A stretch of 64,000 nucleotides of DNA. Origin: Flavobacteriales bacterium. GTDB taxonomy: Bacteria > Bacteroidota > Bacteroidia > Flavobacteriales > Flavobacteriaceae. Under the pieces are notes generated by a model, which had not been told where the DNA came from, did not search any database, and saw only the letters and a list, made by a program, of their open reading frames with translations. The stretch is from positions 48,769 through 112,768 of the forward strand of contig SGZG01000001.1 in NCBI GenBank assembly GCA_004214185.1, given 5' to 3'. A program made the position numbers and the translations under genes. Below, one piece after another: positions 18,534-52,931 of the stretch (within the stretch, counting starts at the first letter, position 1; each line of letters starts with the position of its first letter).

Positions 18534-19841
18534 ATGAGTACTTTTTCTATTAAAGGCGGTGTAAAATTAAAAGGAGAAGTCATTCCTCAGGGAGCTAAAA
18601 ATGAAGCACTTCAAGTCATATGTGCCTGTTTGTTAACAGATAAAGAAATAATCATTGATAATATTCCAGAAATTATTGATGTACTTAAATTAATTGATTT
18701 ACTTAAATCCCTTGGAGTTCAAGTTAAAAAAATAGAAAAAAATAAATATTCTTTTAAAGCAAATAAAATTAATATTGAATATTTACAGTCTGATGATTTT
18801 AAATTGAAGGGTAGTAGTTTAAGAGGGTCAATAATGATTGTTGGACCTCTTTTAGCTAGGTTTGGTAAGGGGTTTATTCCTAAGCCAGGTGGTGATAAAA
18901 TTGGAAGACGACGCTTAGACACTCATTTTATTGGCTTAATTAAACTTGGAGCATCTTTTAGGTATAATAAAGAAGAACATTTTTATGGTGTTGAAGCTGA
19001 TAAATTAAAGGGTAGTTATATATTGCTTGATCAAGCTTCAGTTACTGGAACCGCTAACGTATTAATGGCAGCCGTACTTGCTGAAGGTAAAACAGAGATA
19101 TATAATGCTGCCTGTGAACCATATATTCAACAATTGTGTAAATTATTGATTTCAATGGGTGCCAACATCCAAGGAGTAGGATCAAATTTATTAACAGTTT
19201 TAGGTGTTTCTTCCTTAAATGGAGCTACTCACAAGGTTCTCCCTGATATGATTGAAATTGGGAGTTGGATTGGTTTGGCTGCTATGACAAAAAGTGAGTT
19301 GACTATTAAAAATGTAAGCTGGGAAAATTTAGGTCAGATTCCTAATGTTTTTAAAAAATTAGGAATTAAGTTAAATAAAATTGGGGATGATATCCATATC
19401 CCAGAACATAACAATGGTTACGAAATTCAAAACTATATTGACGGATCTGTATTAACTGTTTCTGATGCTCCATGGCCAGGATTTACACCTGATTTGTTAA
19501 GTATAGTTTTAGTCGTTGCTACTCAGGCAAGGGGTAGTGTTTTAATTCATCAAAAAATGTTTGAGAGTAGGTTATTTTTTGTTGATAAATTAATTGATAT
19601 GGGGGCTAAAATTATTTTATGTGATCCTCACAGAGCTAATGTAATAGGACATGATTTTAAATCACAACTAAAATCTACTACAATGGTTTCACCCGATATT
19701 AGAGCGGGAATTTCTTTATTAATTGCAGCTCTATCTGCTAAAGGAGAAAGTATAATTCACAATATCGAACAAATCGATAGGGGGTATGAGAATATAGATG
19801 AGCGCTTAAGAAAACTTGGAGCTGTTATTAAAAGAATTTAA
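18534..19841 (+). CDS. murA: UDP-N-acetylglucosamine 1-carboxyvinyltransferase
   Basis: MurA transfers enolpyruvate from PEP to UDP-GlcNAc, the first committed step of peptidoglycan synthesis. The family features are present: IPQGAKNEALQ with the conserved Lys-Asn pair, GSSLRGSIMIVGPLLARFG, VTGTANVLMAAVLAEG, and SDAPWPGFTPDL. The 435-residue length is normal. In the active-site loop the sequence is PGGDKIGRRRLDTH, so residue 121 is Asp where E. coli has Cys115. That Cys is the residue alkylated by fosfomycin, and Cys-to-Asp is known to give resistance while keeping activity. It is likely co-transcribed with DUF4290, and convergent with the TIGR03643 gene (4 nt overlap). Confidence 0.97.
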   Translation: MSTFSIKGGVKLKGEVIPQGAKNEALQVICACLLTDKEIIIDNIPEIIDVLKLIDLLKSLGVQVKKIEKNKYSFKANKINIEYLQSDDFKLKGSSLRGSIMIVGPLLARFGKGFIPKPGGDKIGRRRLDTHFIGLIKLGASFRYNKEEHFYGVEADKLKGSYILLDQASVTGTANVLMAAVLAEGKTEIYNAACEPYIQQLCKLLISMGANIQGVGSNLLTVLGVSSLNGATHKVLPDMIEIGSWIGLAAMTKSELTIKNVSWENLGQIPNVFKKLGIKLNKIGDDIHIPEHNNGYEIQNYIDGSVLTVSDAPWPGFTPDLLSIVLVVATQARGSVLIHQKMFESRLFFVDKLIDMGAKIILCDPHRANVIGHDFKSQLKSTTMVSPDIRAGISLLIAALSAKGESIIHNIEQIDRGYENIDERLRKLGAVIKRI

Positions 19842-20113
19842 TTCCTTTTTGAGATTTTATTTCCTGTTAATCTCTGTCTTGAACATTTAAATCTATTAAC
19901 TGTTCCGTCTCTAAGTCTAGCATGTTTGGTTTTTCTTCCTTGAACTCTTTTTCGCCATAAGGTGAAGCTTTTTGATTTCATCTCCTTTCTCATGAGGTTG
20001 ATTACATCTTGTTCTTTCAATCCAAATTGGAATTTTATTGCTTCAAAAGGAGTTCTATCCTCCCAAGCCATTTCTATAACTCTGTCAATTTGAATTTGAT
20101 CAAGTTTATTCAT
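19838..20113 (-). CDS. TIGR03643/DUF2805 family protein
   Basis: The 91-residue basic protein reads RVIEMAWEDRTPFEAIKFQF, then GLKEQDVINLMRKEMKSKSF and WRKRVQGRKTKHARLR, which is the TIGR03643 family. The family is nearly always found beside cryptochrome/photolyase genes in marine bacteria. The N-terminal half resembles a small helix-turn-helix and the C-terminal half is very basic, so DNA or RNA binding is plausible but unproven. It is the last gene of the five-gene light/repair block and overlaps the cryptochrome stop by 8 nt. Confidence 0.85.
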   Translation of the reverse strand: MNKLDQIQIDRVIEMAWEDRTPFEAIKFQFGLKEQDVINLMRKEMKSKSFTLWRKRVQGRKTKHARLRDGTVNRFKCSRQRLTGNKISKRN

Positions 20114-21590
20114 TATCTAAGTGATTTAAAAAATTATCTGCATCAACAAGTAGTTTTTCTTTTTTCATGGGATTCATCTTATCAAAACTACTTATTAGCA
20201 TCCTCATTCTAGGATTTGTTTTAAAAAACTCTCTTTGCTTATCCATGAATGTCCAAAAAAGACCATCCCAAATTTCGCTCCAGCTACCTTTTTTGTAATC
20301 ACTCATTTTTATGATATAGTTACTACTGCTTATGTATGGTTTAGTGGACATCAACCCTCCATCTGCAAATTGACTCATTCCGTAAACATTAGGAACCATT
20401 ACCCAATCGTATGAATCTATAAAAACTTCCATAAACCATCTGTAAACTTCATCTGGATCAAATTCACATAAAAGCATAAAATTTCCTAAAATCATTAATC
20501 TCTCGATATGATTTCCGTATCCTGTATTTTTAACTTTTATAATTGTGTCATCGACAGGATCAATTCCAGTTGAACCATCGTAAAATGATTTTGGTATTTT
20601 TCTTTTAAAATTCCAATAATTTTTATTTCTTTCTTCGGTTCCTTTACAAACATAAACACCTCTAATGAACTCTCTCCAACCAATTATTTGTCTAATAAAT
20701 CCCTCAACAGAGTTTAATGGAGTGTTAAATTTTTTATAGTAGTTTAAAGAACATTTTACAATATGTTCAGGATTTATTAGGCCTGAGTTTACAAGTGGAG
20801 ATAAAACACTATGATTTATAATAGATTCATTTACAAGTACAGCATCCTCATAAATTCCAAACTCCTCAAATCTTGTTTCTAGAAAATTATTAAACCAAAT
20901 TTTAGAAGATTCAAAATCTGTTGGATACAATTGAGAATCATGTTCTATTTCTCCAAAATTGTCGGGAAAATTTATTTGAACATATTTAACAGATTCAGAA
21001 TAATTTTCGCTTTTTAATTTTGAATAATCAATTTTTGGTGTTGATTTGTTTTTTGGAAATTTTTTTCTGTTCATATCATCATATGTCCATTTTCCGCCTT
21101 CAGGATTAGATTCAGAATCTATTAAAATATTTAATTTTTTTCTTTGATTTTTATAAAAGGATGTTTGAAATAATTTCTTTTTTTCTCTACTGAAAAATGG
21201 TAGTAAATCATTTCTTGAGTTTATAAACAATGGGTTTTCAATTATTGATAATTCTATATTGTTTTTAATACATTTTGATTTGATTCTCTTTTCAAGCCAA
21301 TTATCCTCGGGATTATAAATATTAATTTTTTTTTCTTCGGTAAAATCTAAGAAATTTCTTATATCAGAATTATTATTATTTGATTCAATATAAATAGTCT
21401 CAATACCTTTTTTGTTTAAATAAATCTCATAGTTTTTCATTGAGCTTCGATGAAAAACTAATTTCTGCTTATGAAAATTATACTGTTTAAAAAATAAATA
21501 TTCTTCAATTAAATAAGTTTTGTTATTGTTTTGAATCAAAAGACTATCTTCAAATAGTTGATTAGGAAAGATTATGTTTATGGATTTCAA
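20106..21590 (-). CDS. cryptochrome/photolyase-related flavoprotein, FeS-BCP/CryPro type without cluster cysteines
   Basis: This 494-residue protein has the architecture of the FeS-BCP/CryPro branch of photolyases (E. coli-unrelated 'photolyase-like'): N-terminal antenna domain starting SINIIFPNQLFEDS, then the FAD-binding half with GWREFIRGVYVCKG, GNHIERLMILGNFML, and WVMVPNVYGMSQFADGGLMS followed by TKPYISSSNYIIKMSDY. Members of this branch normally hold a 4Fe-4S cluster through four Cys; after KMSDY one expects CxxC and a further Cys. Here the sequence is KMSDYKKGSWSEIWDGLFW, and no Cys remains in the last 110 residues. It may repair (6-4) lesions or act as a sensor; this cannot be decided by reading. 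The gene overlaps both neighbours (4 and 8 nt). Confidence 0.88.
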   Translation of the reverse strand: MKSINIIFPNQLFEDSLLIQNNNKTYLIEEYLFFKQYNFHKQKLVFHRSSMKNYEIYLNKKGIETIYIESNNNNSDIRNFLDFTEEKKINIYNPEDNWLEKRIKSKCIKNNIELSIIENPLFINSRNDLLPFFSREKKKLFQTSFYKNQRKKLNILIDSESNPEGGKWTYDDMNRKKFPKNKSTPKIDYSKLKSENYSESVKYVQINFPDNFGEIEHDSQLYPTDFESSKIWFNNFLETRFEEFGIYEDAVLVNESIINHSVLSPLVNSGLINPEHIVKCSLNYYKKFNTPLNSVEGFIRQIIGWREFIRGVYVCKGTEERNKNYWNFKRKIPKSFYDGSTGIDPVDDTIIKVKNTGYGNHIERLMILGNFMLLCEFDPDEVYRWFMEVFIDSYDWVMVPNVYGMSQFADGGLMSTKPYISSSNYIIKMSDYKKGSWSEIWDGLFWTFMDKQREFFKTNPRMRMLISSFDKMNPMKKEKLLVDADNFLNHLDNE

Positions 21591-22882
21591 TTTTCTAAAG
21601 CCTTTTTATAAACATTAAGACATCGCTCTCTTGCGAATTTATGTTCAATTATTTCATTTGTGTAATCACTAGTACCAAATTCTGGAACCCATTTTTTTAT
21701 ATAATTCAGGTTTTTATCGAATTTTTTTAACTGTTCATGTGGGTTAAAAATTCTAAAATAAGGTGAAGCGTCAACACCACATCCTGCTACCCATTGCCAA
21801 TTTCCTATATTACTAGCTGTTTCATAATCATATAACTTTTCTCTAAAGTAAGCTTCACCCCATCTCCAATCTATTAGTAAATGTTTACATAAAAAACTAC
21901 CTACTAACATTCTAACTCTGTTATGCATAAAACCTGTGTTATTTAATTCTCTCATCCCAGCATCTACCAAAGGATAACCTGTTTCACCGTTGCACCATTT
22001 TTTAAATTTATCTTCATTATTTATCCATTCAATTCTATCATATTTTGGCTTAAAACTTTTTGAAATTGTTTTTGGAAAATGATAAAGAATCTGTTGAAAA
22101 AATTCCCTCCAAATCAATTCTTTTAAATAAGTTTTATTTGATGATCTATTTGCTCTTTTAATTAATTTTCTTGTACTGATTGTGCCAAATCTTAGTTTTA
22201 CACCTACTTTTGATGTTGCATCTAGCGAAGGAAAGTTTCGGATTTCTTCATAATCATCTATAATTTTTTTAGAAATATTTGTTTTTAAAAAACACATAGT
22301 TTTGTCTTCTAAAATCAAATTATGAGACTTTATATCACTCACATTTACCAAATTGTTTGTAAGCTTTTCAGAGCAGTATTCTTTAATTCCAATTTTTGAC
22401 ATTTTTGAAATCCATTTTCTTGAGTATGGAGTGTAAACTTTATAGGGATTACCATCATCCTTTACAACCTCATTTTTTTCAAACAAAACGTGATCTTTAA
22501 AGTCCATAAATTCAATATTGTGCTTTGTTAAAAACTTTTTAATTGAAAGGTCTCTGCTTATTGAATAGGGTGTGTAATCTCTGTTTGTAAAAACTTTTTT
22601 TATTTTAAATTTTGATACTAAGTCATTAAATATTTTTAGTGGTTTACCCCTGTAGCAAATAATTCTTTTTTTTGATTTTGATAATGTTAAATTTAAATTA
22701 TCAATAGATTCTTTAATGAAGTGTAATCTGTGATCATTGACATTTAATTTGGAAAGTATATTGTCATCATATATAAAGATTGGTAATACTTCATTTTTGT
22801 GACTTAATGCATGAAATAGAGCTATATTATCATCAAGTCTTAAGTCTCTTCTAAACCAAAAAATATTTATTTCTTTATTCAA
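21587..22882 (-). CDS. phrB: deoxyribodipyrimidine photolyase (class I CPD)
   Basis: Photolyase uses blue light and FADH- to split cyclobutane pyrimidine dimers. The N-terminal antenna-binding domain begins INIFWFRRDLRLDDN. The FAD domain has LKELIWREFFQQILYHFP, TGYPLVDAGMRELNNTGFMH, NRVRMLVGSFLCKHLLIDWR, and the C-terminal GNWQWVAGCGVDASPYFRIF. The 431-residue length is at the short end but complete. It lies 0 nt after the SDR stop and overlaps the cryptochrome start by 4 nt, so all are one transcript. CPD specificity is inferred from the family; a cryptochrome role is less likely. Confidence 0.93.
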   Translation of the reverse strand: MNKEINIFWFRRDLRLDDNIALFHALSHKNEVLPIFIYDDNILSKLNVNDHRLHFIKESIDNLNLTLSKSKKRIICYRGKPLKIFNDLVSKFKIKKVFTNRDYTPYSISRDLSIKKFLTKHNIEFMDFKDHVLFEKNEVVKDDGNPYKVYTPYSRKWISKMSKIGIKEYCSEKLTNNLVNVSDIKSHNLILEDKTMCFLKTNISKKIIDDYEEIRNFPSLDATSKVGVKLRFGTISTRKLIKRANRSSNKTYLKELIWREFFQQILYHFPKTISKSFKPKYDRIEWINNEDKFKKWCNGETGYPLVDAGMRELNNTGFMHNRVRMLVGSFLCKHLLIDWRWGEAYFREKLYDYETASNIGNWQWVAGCGVDASPYFRIFNPHEQLKKFDKNLNYIKKWVPEFGTSDYTNEIIEHKFARERCLNVYKKALEN

Positions 22883-23599
22883 CTATGATAAGTTTATTGT
22901 TGACATACCACCATCTATTCCAAGAGTTTGCCCCGTAATCCAAGAGCTTTTGTCACTTAGTAAAAAAGCTGTGTAGTTTGCTATATCAATTGATTCTCCA
23001 CATCTTTTTAAAGGATGTCTATTACCTACTTTTTCCTTTTTTATTTCATTATTTAGGAATCTTTCTGCCATTGGGGTATTTGTGAGAGATGGAGCTATTA
23101 CATTGACTCTGATTCCTGGTGCATATTCAGCTGATAATGATCTAGCAAACCCCTCAATTGCACCTTTTGAAGCTGAAACACTAGTATGAAAAGGCATACC
23201 AATTTTTACAGCAACTGTACTGTAAAGCACAATGCTGGAATTTCCTGACTTTTTTAGGTTATTTATTACTTTTTGTAAAGTTTTTACCATACTAATAAAA
23301 TTTAAGTTAAGATCTTCTTCAAAAGTTGATATTTTTAAACTTCTAAAAGGTCTAAGGTTTATGGATCCAGGACAATAAACAAAACCATGTAATTCTTCAG
23401 GAACTAATTCACTGTTGAATTCATCCACACCTGAATCAAATTTTATGTATTCAATGTTAAAGTTTTTAAGGTTTTCATTTGATCTTGAAGCTACGAAGAT
23501 ATTACATTCATTTTGTAATAGTTTGATTGTTTCTAGTCCAATCCCTGTTGATCCTCCAATAAATAATATATTTTTTCTCATTGTTTTAGATTTTTCCAA
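22883..23599 (-). CDS. SDR-family protein lacking the catalytic tyrosine
   Basis: The Rossmann motif FIGGSTGIGLETIKLL binds a nicotinamide cofactor, and the C-terminal NVIAPSLTNTPMAERFL and SSWITGQTLGIDGGMS are standard for short-chain dehydrogenases. At the active site the expected YxxxK is VSASK (Val141, Lys145), so the catalytic Tyr is missing while Lys and a nearby Ser remain. This form seems usual for SDR proteins encoded beside photolyases. It may bind NAD(P) without classical oxidoreductase chemistry, or use another proton donor. The ORF-track start overlaps the SRPBCC gene by 14 nt; the Met seven codons in (MRKNILFIGG) is an equally good start. Confidence 0.85.
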   Translation of the reverse strand: MEKSKTMRKNILFIGGSTGIGLETIKLLQNECNIFVASRSNENLKNFNIEYIKFDSGVDEFNSELVPEELHGFVYCPGSINLRPFRSLKISTFEEDLNLNFISMVKTLQKVINNLKKSGNSSIVLYSTVAVKIGMPFHTSVSASKGAIEGFARSLSAEYAPGIRVNVIAPSLTNTPMAERFLNNEIKKEKVGNRHPLKRCGESIDIANYTAFLLSDKSSWITGQTLGIDGGMSTINLS

Positions 23600-24047
23600 A
23601 TATTTGGTTTAGTTTTTCTTCTCTGTACTTAAAAATTTGTTCAAGTTTTTTTTTTACAATTAATGGATGAGCAATTCTACCGAAAATTCCAAAAGGAATT
23701 TTATAATCTACAACATCTTCCATCTCAACACCCCCTTCAATTTTTTTAATAAAATGTTTGTGGTGCCAAAGGGAATAGGGTCCAAATCTTTGCTCATCTA
23801 CAAAATATTTTTTATCAATTACGTGCGTTATTTCTGTAACCCACTTTAAAGTAATTCCGAATAATGGTGTTACCTCGTACTGAATTAATTGTCCAGGGTA
23901 AATAGATTTATCTGCACCACTTAATATTTTGAAATTCATATAATCGGGTGTTATTTCTGAAAGATTTTTTGGATCACTTAAAAAATTCCACGCCTGCTTA
24001 ACGGTTATGGGTAGTTTTTGTTTAGTTTTAATTTGATAAATTTTCAA
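23586..24047 (-). CDS. SRPBCC (START/Bet v1-like) ligand-binding protein
   Basis: The 153-residue protein begins IYQIKTKQKLPITVKQAWNF and contains LSEITPDYMNFKILSG, YEVTPLFGITLKWVTEI, and YSLWHHKHFIKKIEGGVEME, the pattern of the polyketide-cyclase-like SRPBCC family. It has a hydrophobic pocket of unknown ligand. The start is TTG; no in-frame ATG precedes the conserved N-terminus. It is the first gene of the light/repair block. The 50-nt spacer to the divergent DUF2911 gene has no TAnnTTTG element, so the block may use another sigma factor. Confidence 0.82.
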   Translation of the reverse strand: MKIYQIKTKQKLPITVKQAWNFLSDPKNLSEITPDYMNFKILSGADKSIYPGQLIQYEVTPLFGITLKWVTEITHVIDKKYFVDEQRFGPYSLWHHKHFIKKIEGGVEMEDVVDYKIPFGIFGRIAHPLIVKKKLEQIFKYREEKLNQIFGKI

Positions 24048-24097
24048 TTTATTATTTTTATTTTCATAATTTCAAAGACCATACCAACCTTAAAATC

Positions 24098-50574: not shown

Positions 50575-52931
50575 TAAAAGTTAAAGTTATAAGTTACACT
50601 TGGAACAATTCCAAAAATTGAAAGTTGTATTGCTTCATTTTTTAATGTTTCACTATTTTCTCTAAAAAATATAGAATTTGCATTATCTCTGTTGTAAACA
50701 TTATACAAACCAAAAATCCATTCACTTTTATATTTTTTTCTTTTTATTGGCTTTAAAGAAACTGATACATCAAGCCTGTGGTAATTAGGAAGTCTTTCAG
50801 AGTTTCTAATACCATAGTTTGGAATGTTTAAATCCATAAAAGTATATTGTCCTACAGGGTAATTAGTTGGTTGTCCAGTTTGAAAAATCAAATTTGTATT
50901 AAGTGTTAGTTTTTTTGAAAGCTTATAATTTGAAACAAAACTAATATCATGAGTTTTATCGTGTGGTGTATAATACCACTTACCATTATTTATTCCACTT
51001 TCAAATTTAGTTCTTCCCTCTGTTTTTTGTTGAGATTTCGAATAAGTGTAAGCAATCCAATAATTATGATTGCCAGTATTTTTTTTAAATAATATTTCCA
51101 AGCCATATGCTCTAGATTTTCCTGCTAATAAAATTCTTTCTACCGCTTCATTTGCTACTAAGTCAGCTCCATCAATATAATCTAGTCGATTTTTTATTTT
51201 TTTATAGAAAACCTCTGTTTCCAAGTTAAATTTATTTTTAATTTTTGATTGATAACCAATAGCCCATTGATCAAGCCTTTGAGGTTTTAGGTATGGTCCG
51301 CTAGGTGTCCAAACATCTAAAGGTGCGGGTGCATTTGTATTAGAAATTAAATGTATATACTGATTAAGTTTATTGTAGCTTAACTTTAAAGAACTGTTTT
51401 TGAAGTTATAAGCTAAATTAATTCTCGGTTCGATATTTCCATATGCTTTTATAGTAGTTTTATCTTTACTAAATTCACCAATAGGGTCAGCTCCTTTGTA
51501 TATGCCAAGATTACTATCAAAAAAAACTGGATTAGATTCTAGATATATGTTTAAACCATTTTGCTTAAATCTTAAAAATTGATTGAATCTTAGGCCGTAC
51601 CTAAGTGATATTTTTGGAGATATCTTTTGGATCACATCTAAATATGCAGAATTTTCAAGAGCATATTTCTTGTTTAAATTTTTATAATTAATTCCTGAAT
51701 TTTCAATTGGTTTAATTTCTCCTGGATTGAATTCATAATAAATAGAATTTAATCCATAATTAAATTGAATATTATCATTATAGTAATTTTTTAAATCGAA
51801 TTTTATATTTAAATTTTTAATGCCAGAATTCCAATTAAATCCGATAAAATCTAAAGTTAAACCGTAATAATAATCACTGTAAATTAATGAGGTATTAGAA
51901 AATGTTTTATCATTAATCAAATGATTCCATCTGAGATTAAACGTAGAATTTCCATAGGTATTAGAAAATGTATTGTTTAAACTGAACTTATCTCTTCCGA
52001 AATATCCTGATAAAAAAAGTATATTTTTTTCATCAATTTTAAAGTTGGATTTAGTATTTAAATCGTAAAAATAGGCTACATTTTCAATATCAGTAAATTT
52101 TAAAAATAAGTGTGCATATGAACCTCTGCCAGCAATTAAAAAAGAACTTTTTTCTTTTTGAATAGGGCCTTCAAACAATAATCTGCTAGAGATTAACCCA
52201 ATGCCACCACTCAATTTATTTTGTTTACTATTTCCATCTTTCTGATAAACATCAAGTACAGATGATAATCTTCCTCCGTATGATGATGGTATACCTCCTT
52301 TATATAATTTGAGTTCTTTAATAGCGTCTGAATTAAAAACAGAAAATAAACCAAATAAATGTGATGAATTATACATAATGGCTTCATCAAATAATATTAA
52401 ATTTTGATCTCCAGCTCCACCTCTTACATTAAATCCACCAGTTCCTTCTCCAGCATTAGAAATACCGGGAAGTAATTGTATAGATTTTAATAGATCTGAT
52501 TCACCAAATAAAACTGGAGTTTGTTTTATTGTTTTATTAGAAAGAATATTTAGGCTCAATATTGGTTTTTTGATATCAATTTCTTCAACATTTTTTGTTA
52601 CGATAACTTCCTCTAAATTCTCAATATTTTCTTTTAAATAATAATTGACTTTTTGATTTCTCTCCAAGTCTATCGTTTCATTAACTGTTTTAAATCCTAT
52701 GGAACTTATTTCGATTTTAAAAATTCCACTTGGAAGTGTTATTGAATAGAATCCATAACTGTTAGTTGTTGTTCCAGTCCCTATTTCAGGAAAAACAATA
52801 TTAGCTCCAATTATTAATTCGTTGCTGTCCAGAGACATTATATAACCACTCAGAGTGTGAGACTTGTCTTGAGAGAATATGTTAGAGTAAAATGTTAAAA
52901 AAAATATGAAGAAAAGGTTTTTCTTTAACAT
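50574..52931 (-). CDS. TonB-dependent outer-membrane receptor
   Basis: A signal peptide is followed by a CarboxypepD_reg-like domain (residues 25-110, LSGYIMSLDSNELIIGANIV), a plug (residues 120-240 with LPGISNAGEGTGGFNVRGGA, GDQNLILFDEAIMYNSSHLF, PSSYGGRLSSVLDVYQKDG), and a C-terminal barrel ending in Phe (VPSVTYNFNF). The 785-residue length is normal. It transports an unknown ligand by energy from TonB/ExbBD, none of which is encoded here. It is upstream of DUF4249 in the same operon. Confidence 0.92.
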   Translation of the reverse strand: MLKKNLFFIFFLTFYSNIFSQDKSHTLSGYIMSLDSNELIIGANIVFPEIGTGTTTNSYGFYSITLPSGIFKIEISSIGFKTVNETIDLERNQKVNYYLKENIENLEEVIVTKNVEEIDIKKPILSLNILSNKTIKQTPVLFGESDLLKSIQLLPGISNAGEGTGGFNVRGGAGDQNLILFDEAIMYNSSHLFGLFSVFNSDAIKELKLYKGGIPSSYGGRLSSVLDVYQKDGNSKQNKLSGGIGLISSRLLFEGPIQKEKSSFLIAGRGSYAHLFLKFTDIENVAYFYDLNTKSNFKIDEKNILFLSGYFGRDKFSLNNTFSNTYGNSTFNLRWNHLINDKTFSNTSLIYSDYYYGLTLDFIGFNWNSGIKNLNIKFDLKNYYNDNIQFNYGLNSIYYEFNPGEIKPIENSGINYKNLNKKYALENSAYLDVIQKISPKISLRYGLRFNQFLRFKQNGLNIYLESNPVFFDSNLGIYKGADPIGEFSKDKTTIKAYGNIEPRINLAYNFKNSSLKLSYNKLNQYIHLISNTNAPAPLDVWTPSGPYLKPQRLDQWAIGYQSKIKNKFNLETEVFYKKIKNRLDYIDGADLVANEAVERILLAGKSRAYGLEILFKKNTGNHNYWIAYTYSKSQQKTEGRTKFESGINNGKWYYTPHDKTHDISFVSNYKLSKKLTLNTNLIFQTGQPTNYPVGQYTFMDLNIPNYGIRNSERLPNYHRLDVSVSLKPIKRKKYKSEWIFGLYNVYNRDNANSIFFRENSETLKNEAIQLSIFGIVPSVTYNFNF

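Follow-up and report, generated by a model that had tools for sequence, protein, structure and literature searches.

A five-gene photolyase block in Flavobacteriaceae, probably a reduced photoprotection island that lost its light switch

The five-gene block and its products

The block considered here lies in a 64,000-nt stretch of DNA (the window) from a Flavobacteriales bacterium of the family Flavobacteriaceae (assembly GCA_004214185.1, contig SGZG01000001.1, positions 48,769 to 112,768 of the forward strand). Five open reading frames (ORFs) were found in the ORF list of the window, all on the minus strand and running from 24047 to 19838, and encode in this order an SRPBCC-fold protein, a short-chain dehydrogenase/reductase (SDR) without the catalytic tyrosine, a cyclobutane pyrimidine dimer (CPD)-type photolyase, a prokaryotic (6-4)-photolyase-family protein (DPRP) without iron-sulphur (Fe-S) cysteines, and a small protein of the DUF2805/TIGR03643 family. 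The ORFs as called have junctions of -14, 0, -4 and -8 nt. The SDR ORF as called begins at 23599; since its homologue in locus L097 starts with MKKNILFIGG, the start was placed at the ATG at 23581, and the SRPBCC/SDR junction therefore becomes a 4-nt gap instead of an overlap of 14 nt. With this correction to the first junction, an earlier note on this DNA, which had described five minus-strand genes with overlapping or zero-gap junctions, was confirmed for both the ORFs and their families. TTG start codons are called for the SRPBCC gene and for both photolyase genes, that of the SRPBCC gene being backed by the N-termini of its homologues. At the downstream end, the 3' end of the DUF2805 gene overlaps a convergent EPSP-synthase/MurA-like gene by 4 nt, and at the upstream end a 50-nt leader (24048..24097, minus strand) separates the SRPBCC gene from a divergent DUF2911 gene; L045, L080 and L097, which are near relatives, have the same flanks. 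The tight packing of the five genes suggests a single transcript.

The product of the first gene (23586..24047, 153 aa) scores 25.3 bits against PF03364 (Polyketide_cyc/SRPBCC; cut-off 23.4). Its homologues adjoin a CPD photolyase in relatives, and a search for solved structures gave no informative relative. The SDR (22883..23581; 238 aa as called) matches PF13561 adh_short_C2 with 125 bits, its AlphaFold model has a confidence (pLDDT) of 92, and Foldseek matched it best to classical SDRs (E 1e-21). It retains the glycine-rich cofactor motif GGSTGIG as well as the serine and lysine of the active site, whereas the tyrosine of the YxxxK motif is replaced by valine or isoleucine in 52 of 52 homologues, so that the description of this SDR as atypical in the earlier note stands. 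An invariant histidine lies seven residues ahead of the lysine in the SDR orthologues, a spacing that is also that of the FabI-type tyrosine, and because of this spacing altered chemistry and a pure binding role are both possible.

The CPD-type photolyase (21587..22882, 431 aa) contains the PF00875 DNA_photolyase (137.9 bits) and PF03441 FAD_binding_7 (243.2 bits) domains, has 4u63, 1tez and 1dnp as its best solved relatives and scores below the NCBIfam equivalog cut-offs (PRK10674, 302.5 versus 506; TIGR03556, 348.4 versus 884.6). A second photolyase-like gene, of the island c5 type, is present in the genome of the window, apart from the operon (L207, G000:C3).

The DPRP protein (20106..21590, 494 aa) scores 167.9 bits against PF04244 (cut-off 22.1), and its closest relatives in the PDB are structures of Agrobacterium PhrB (4dja/5kcm). 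In PhrB, the substitutions H366N and Y424F abolish repair, and mutants of the Fe-S cysteines were insoluble or not expressed (PMC4619345). The two proteins share the fold family, and in the alignment the PhrB positions H366, L370, M410, Y424, Y430, W390 and W399 are all unchanged in the window protein, which differs from PhrB at W342 (Tyr), at Y391 and Y460 (both Phe) and at H365 (Asn). The four Fe-S cysteine positions are occupied by proline, a gap, a gap and glutamate, which places the protein outside the FeS-BCP subtype. A subgroup of prokaryotic 6-4 photolyases without the cluster (subgroup M), including PromaPL of Prochlorococcus, has already been described (PMC9178010). Because the repair residues of PhrB are kept, the Fe-S cysteines are lost and a cluster-free subgroup is known, the window protein is most likely a cluster-free (6-4) photolyase, for which repair activity is predicted. 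'Cryptochrome-like protein', the name used in the earlier note, was rejected, as the residues needed for (6-4) repair in PhrB are intact.

The last gene (19838..20113) encodes a 91-aa protein that passes the cut-offs of both TIGR03643 (123.6 versus 66.55) and PF10985 (126.4 versus 22.5). An alignment of 52 sequences, drawn from Bacteroidota, Gammaproteobacteria, cyanobacteria and phage contigs, has 18 invariant columns. In the AlphaFold model, in which residues 11-50 have a pLDDT of about 93, four helices are predicted, two of which form a helix-turn-helix (HTH)-like pair, and the basic tail is disordered. No relative was found by sequence in the PDB, and a structure search gave only weak HTH matches with E above 1; the protein is described as a predicted HTH-like basic protein. 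The literature search found no paper on the function of DUF2805/TIGR03643.

Recurrence of the gene set and of the larger island

The earlier note had claimed that the gene set recurs next to photolyases, and a comparison of TIGR03643 neighbourhoods bears this out. Among 80 named Bacteroidota loci found through DUF2805, a sample biased because the loci were chosen by similarity to the DUF2805 protein of the window, all five families occur within 10 kb in 25, and a photolyase or cryptochrome lies no further than 10 kb from DUF2805 in 53. Of 396 Bacteroidota genomes, 113 carry DUF2805 and 133 carry DPRP; both occur in 92 genomes, DUF2805 only in 21, DPRP only in 41 and neither in 242, corresponding to an odds ratio of 26 (Fisher p 7e-37, uncorrected for phylogeny), and the two genes are at most 10 kb apart in 17 genomes.

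The five-family set is usually embedded in an island of about 15 genes that also encodes a DASH cryptochrome, FolE, a glutathione peroxidase, TspO and a flavin reductase. The commonest full island, as found for example in Polaribacter porphyrae (L049), comprises in order genes for Flavin_Reduct, a DUF2867-type SDR, a DASH cryptochrome, DPRP, a second photolyase-like protein, a 144-aa protein and DUF2805, followed by FolE, two small helical proteins, an SDR, glutathione peroxidase, TspO, SRPBCC and a CPD photolyase. Neither the 144-aa protein of L049, which has its own operator (see below), nor the small helical proteins, each about 75 aa long, gave a match in Pfam or NCBIfam (L049:9552-9986 and L049:11031-11550). 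In many relatives, genes for a TetR_C_23 regulator and an ABC1 kinase lie upstream of the island. The window block looks like this larger Flavobacteriaceae island reduced to five genes.

It could be argued that only the two photolyases matter, and that SRPBCC, SDR and DUF2805 are neighbours without a shared role that were packed together by genome streamlining. The genome is indeed small (1.38 Mb at 83% completeness), and the flanking murA, DUF4290, DUF493 and DUF2911 genes are also conserved neighbours in close relatives. However, the same families recur across the Flavobacteriaceae in larger genomes, with changed order and spacing, and SRPBCC genes away from photolyases retain the operator (L264, L287, L307 and L311), so that this explanation is regarded as unlikely.

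DUF2805 has other associations. At 13 of the 80 loci, an AlkB-like 2-oxoglutarate-Fe(II) oxygenase takes the place of the photolyases, and no locus carries both; these AlkB-type loci are found in Maribacter- and Flavobacterium-type genomes (L047, L050, L051, L060, L063 and others). DUF2805 is also recurrent on large phage-like IMG/VR contigs (L125-L203) with genes for DNA polymerase, ribonucleotide reductase and ligase, where a flavodoxin-like oxidoreductase lies in the vicinity 29 times and thymidylate synthase 19 times; it was not found among the records of isolated phages. On Acinetobacter plasmids, DUF2805 (L223:9001-9255) adjoins DUF2256 and a DPRP gene whose reading falls into two pieces. 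The common theme of these neighbours, if there is one, would be nucleic-acid maintenance.

The adjacency of an HTH-like protein and a DPRP protein raises the question of whether the latter is a signalling cryptochrome that acts as the light sensor of the operon, with DUF2805 as its DNA-binding output. RsCryB, a member of the same family, is stated to have regulatory effects (PMC9178010), and in the window protein H365 of PhrB is replaced by Asn and W342 and Y391 are changed. Every residue on which (6-4) repair by PhrB has been shown to depend is nevertheless kept, and DUF2805 often occurs without a nearby DPRP gene, phages included, which makes a signalling role of this kind very improbable.

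Fe-S and cluster-free forms of DPRP occupy the same slot of the operon, even within a single genus (Polaribacter). In an alignment of 56 rows, all four cysteines are present in 33 and none in 23, and the two forms fall into separate clades with support of 100/100 in a tree built without the trait columns, in which the proteins of the window, L097, L120 and L094 group together (99/94). When the label is mapped onto a tree of the other island genes, seven changes are obtained, at least six of them forced by well-supported branches, and a single cluster-free clade is rejected on this tree (p 0.001). The island genes unite Polaribacter in one clade (support 100), whereas on DPRP its monophyly is rejected (p 4e-14). 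The pattern is best explained by repeated replacement in place, which would have occurred at least six times. A patchy distribution could also arise if both forms had been ancestral and were then differentially lost, a scenario to which we attach little weight, as two DPRP copies occur in only one of the 133 DPRP-bearing genomes, itself 13% contaminated, and as the same slot holds either form in Polaribacter, a clade on the island genes but not on DPRP.

A predicted operator, a candidate CarH-type regulator and their apparent absence from the genome of the window

In relatives, a 28-nt inverted repeat, GTTTAAY-N14-RTTAAAC, was first spotted by eye and then tested on independent genomes. This predicted operator is located at the operon start of L045, L080, L110 and L116. 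Half-site pairs in the 80 loci occur 61 times at one exact spacing compared with 0-5 times at other spacings, and 81 intergenic matches were obtained compared with 5.9 in shuffled sequences. A TAnnTTT box follows the repeat by 5-7 nt in 45 of 56 sites, and owing to this nearly fixed distance the repeat would overlap the promoter. Of 70 sites checked for context in 60 regions, 67 are intergenic and 21 have none of the searched genes adjacent. Within islands, the sites precede genes for TetR, the 144-aa protein, flavin reductase, SRPBCC, FolE, SDR or DUF2805, and outside islands they are found before crtI (in two genomes), fasciclin genes and htpG. Fasciclin-domain genes are the commonest single neighbour outside the photolyase island (19 of 70; L253, L257, L265, L279, L291 and others), and the HtpG-like gene has the operator 119-195 nt upstream in L289, L306, L308 and L312. 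In genome G088, two copies of the operator, 6 nt apart, lie between the proteorhodopsin gene and blh (L254:2347-2408).

The candidate regulator was suggested by genomes G088 and G313, in which a MerR-family gene with a B12-binding domain directly precedes the site and crtI. The orthologue in relatives matches PF13411 (54.2) and PF02607 B12-binding_2 (31.9), and the CarH signatures Wx9EH and ExHxxG are present in seven and eight of eight orthologues, respectively. Of 151 Flavobacteriaceae genomes, 111 have a strong CarH orthologue, and these contain a mean of 2.74 sites (0.50 for a control pattern), compared with 0.45 in the 29 genomes without CarH (control 0.31) and 0.45 in the 11 with weak homologues (p 2e-14, although p-values of this comparison overstate independence because the genomes are related). 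In eight of nine cases read, the site lies 21-32 nt after carH, ahead of crtI. The genomes of L045, L080, L110 and L116, with the operator at SRPBCC, are CarH-positive, and CarH was not found in those of L097, L120 and L094. The sequence TAAACA is part of both half-sites and agrees with the TnnACA core of published CarH sites (PMC9304148). By analogy with known CarH proteins, the CarH-type protein would repress in the dark and light would release the repression. Light control thus seems plausible for the family, and the window appears to show its loss.

The TetR_C_23 regulator at the head of the island was also considered as the reader of the repeat, the site lying about 30 nt upstream of the TetR gene in most islands, as autoregulation would predict; this candidate was rejected and is held to be highly doubtful, because the TetR gene is present in G376 and in G012 (close kin of G095) and yet G376 and G095 have no site, because L045, L080, L110 and L116 have sites and no TetR gene in the locus, and because it is CarH whose presence tracks the sites, whose gene they closely follow and whose published core the half-site fits.

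In the window itself, the 50-nt leader contains neither a TAnnTTTG element nor the operator, the best score with a position weight matrix being 0.3 compared with a minimum of 21.3 in the training sites. When up to three mismatches were allowed, 178 matches were obtained where 176 were expected, and the genome of the window gave no palindromic operator site; one near-match, at position 52218 of the window, was taken as chance, as it lies inside a gene for a 785-aa receptor-like protein. Scans for sigma-70-type promoters and terminators remained at the level of shuffled sequence. No CarH orthologue was found in the genome of the window (83% complete) or in its congener G398 (93% complete). The genome, of which 1.38 Mb are assembled, carries proteorhodopsin and blh together, as well as FolE. 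The earlier note had read the lack of TAnnTTTG in the leader as a sign of special regulation, for example by light. The element is missing and the operon start of relatives does carry a special element, the 28-nt repeat linked to a CarH-type gene, but neither the repeat nor CarH was found here, and the missing TAnnTTTG is therefore taken as a sign that a promoter was lost or has drifted, and not as one of special light regulation in the window.

A probable sunlight-survival operon and its known counterparts

Together, these observations make it probable that the block is a short transcription unit for sunlight survival, cut down from a photoprotection island that is switched by CarH in relatives, and that the lineage of the window has lost both CarH and the operator. 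Between them, the CPD and the cluster-free (6-4) photolyase would reverse both of the main UV lesions, DUF2805 would be a small HTH-like protein that travels with direct-reversal DNA repair, and the tyrosine-less SDR and the SRPBCC protein may be accessory proteins in photo-oxidative stress. The earlier note had suggested that these last two might supply or sense a chromophore or a photo-oxidised lipid, a possibility for which the support is their gene neighbourhood. In relatives, a CarH-type adenosylcobalamin light sensor would control the start of the operon through the inverted TAAACA operator overlapping the promoter, keeping the operon repressed in the dark and releasing it in the light, whereas in the lineage of the window the operon is probably expressed without a switch.

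Several points weigh against this reading. The histidine at position 365 of PhrB is Asn in the DPRP proteins of both the window and L097, and DUF2805 is found beside AlkB and in phages without photolyases. The flavobacterial operator is inverted, whereas known CarH operators are tandem direct repeats of 11 bp (PMC9304148), and the flavobacterial protein scores only 68.9 bits against NF052513, for which the equivalog cut-off is 400, which is why it is named CarH-type and not CarH proper. The regulator was proposed from a correlation, and a second regulator, TetR_C_23, is present at many of the same loci. The missing CarH gene is no proof of absence, because the genome of the window is 83% complete.

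In a wider version, which we favour with somewhat less confidence, a B12-based CarH switch of the Flavobacteriaceae, acting on a new operator with two inverted TAAACA half-sites in a 28-nt core, would run a regulon that unites carotenoid and fasciclin genes with the photolyase/cryptochrome island and in some genomes also with proteorhodopsin, and small-genome ocean lineages would have dropped the switch and kept the five-gene core with the iron-free (6-4) photolyase.

Comparable regulons have been reported in Proteobacteria. The common purpose of the set, which the earlier note had called not established, is less obscure than that, since proteobacterial light and singlet-oxygen regulons already group phr, cry/DPRP, SDR and folE (PMC9758184, PMC4336711). 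In Pseudomonas, PhrB, a short-chain dehydrogenase, CryB (of the cryptochrome/photolyase family) and FolE are encoded in light-inducible clusters under MerR-family control (LitR/CarH-controlled; PmlR1/PmlR2, PplR); unlike the flavobacterial case, the regulators are class II LitR proteins with a LOV protein, the clusters contain UfaM and folX/folM, and DUF2805, TspO and SRPBCC are not named there (PMC9758184). The RpoE2-ChrR regulon of Shewanella oneidensis includes the DPRP photolyase SO_4169 with the SDR SO_4170, phrB and glutathione peroxidase under photo-oxidative-stress control, but in separate operons and through singlet-oxygen control by an extracytoplasmic function (ECF) sigma/anti-sigma pair instead of a B12 light sensor (PMC4336711). 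What is shared with subgroup M and PromaPL (PMC9178010) is the loss of the cysteines in a DPRP-family protein; the difference is that the cluster-free form here trades places with Fe-S homologues in a single slot of the operon. The CarH proteins of Thermus, Bacillus megaterium and Myxococcales share with the flavobacterial protein the MerR and B12-binding domains, the Wx9EH and ExHxxG signatures, sites at carotenoid genes and the TnnACA half-site (PMC9304148); beyond the operator geometry and the equivalog score given above, the flavobacterial regulon differs in that it appears to extend to genes for photolyases, SRPBCC and fasciclin proteins and, in a single genome, for proteorhodopsin. No paper linking CarH to flavobacterial photolyase or rhodopsin genes was found in the literature search. 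Relative to the literature searched, the inverted CarH-type operator with its putative flavobacterial regulon, the apparent repeated exchange of Fe-S and iron-free forms in one slot and the tyrosine-less SDR family would be new.

From a recurrent gene set, the analysis derives testable statements on a defined operator of 28 nt, a candidate regulator that can be named and a small number of target genes. They indicate how light may be coupled in flavobacteria to DNA repair and pigments, and possibly to proteorhodopsin. The presence of (6-4) photolyases with and without an Fe-S cluster in the same operon slot provides a natural comparison that bears on the role of the cluster, described elsewhere as being of 'yet unknown function' (PMC12082625). 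The window further suggests that streamlined marine lineages can retain repair genes while the light switch is lost.

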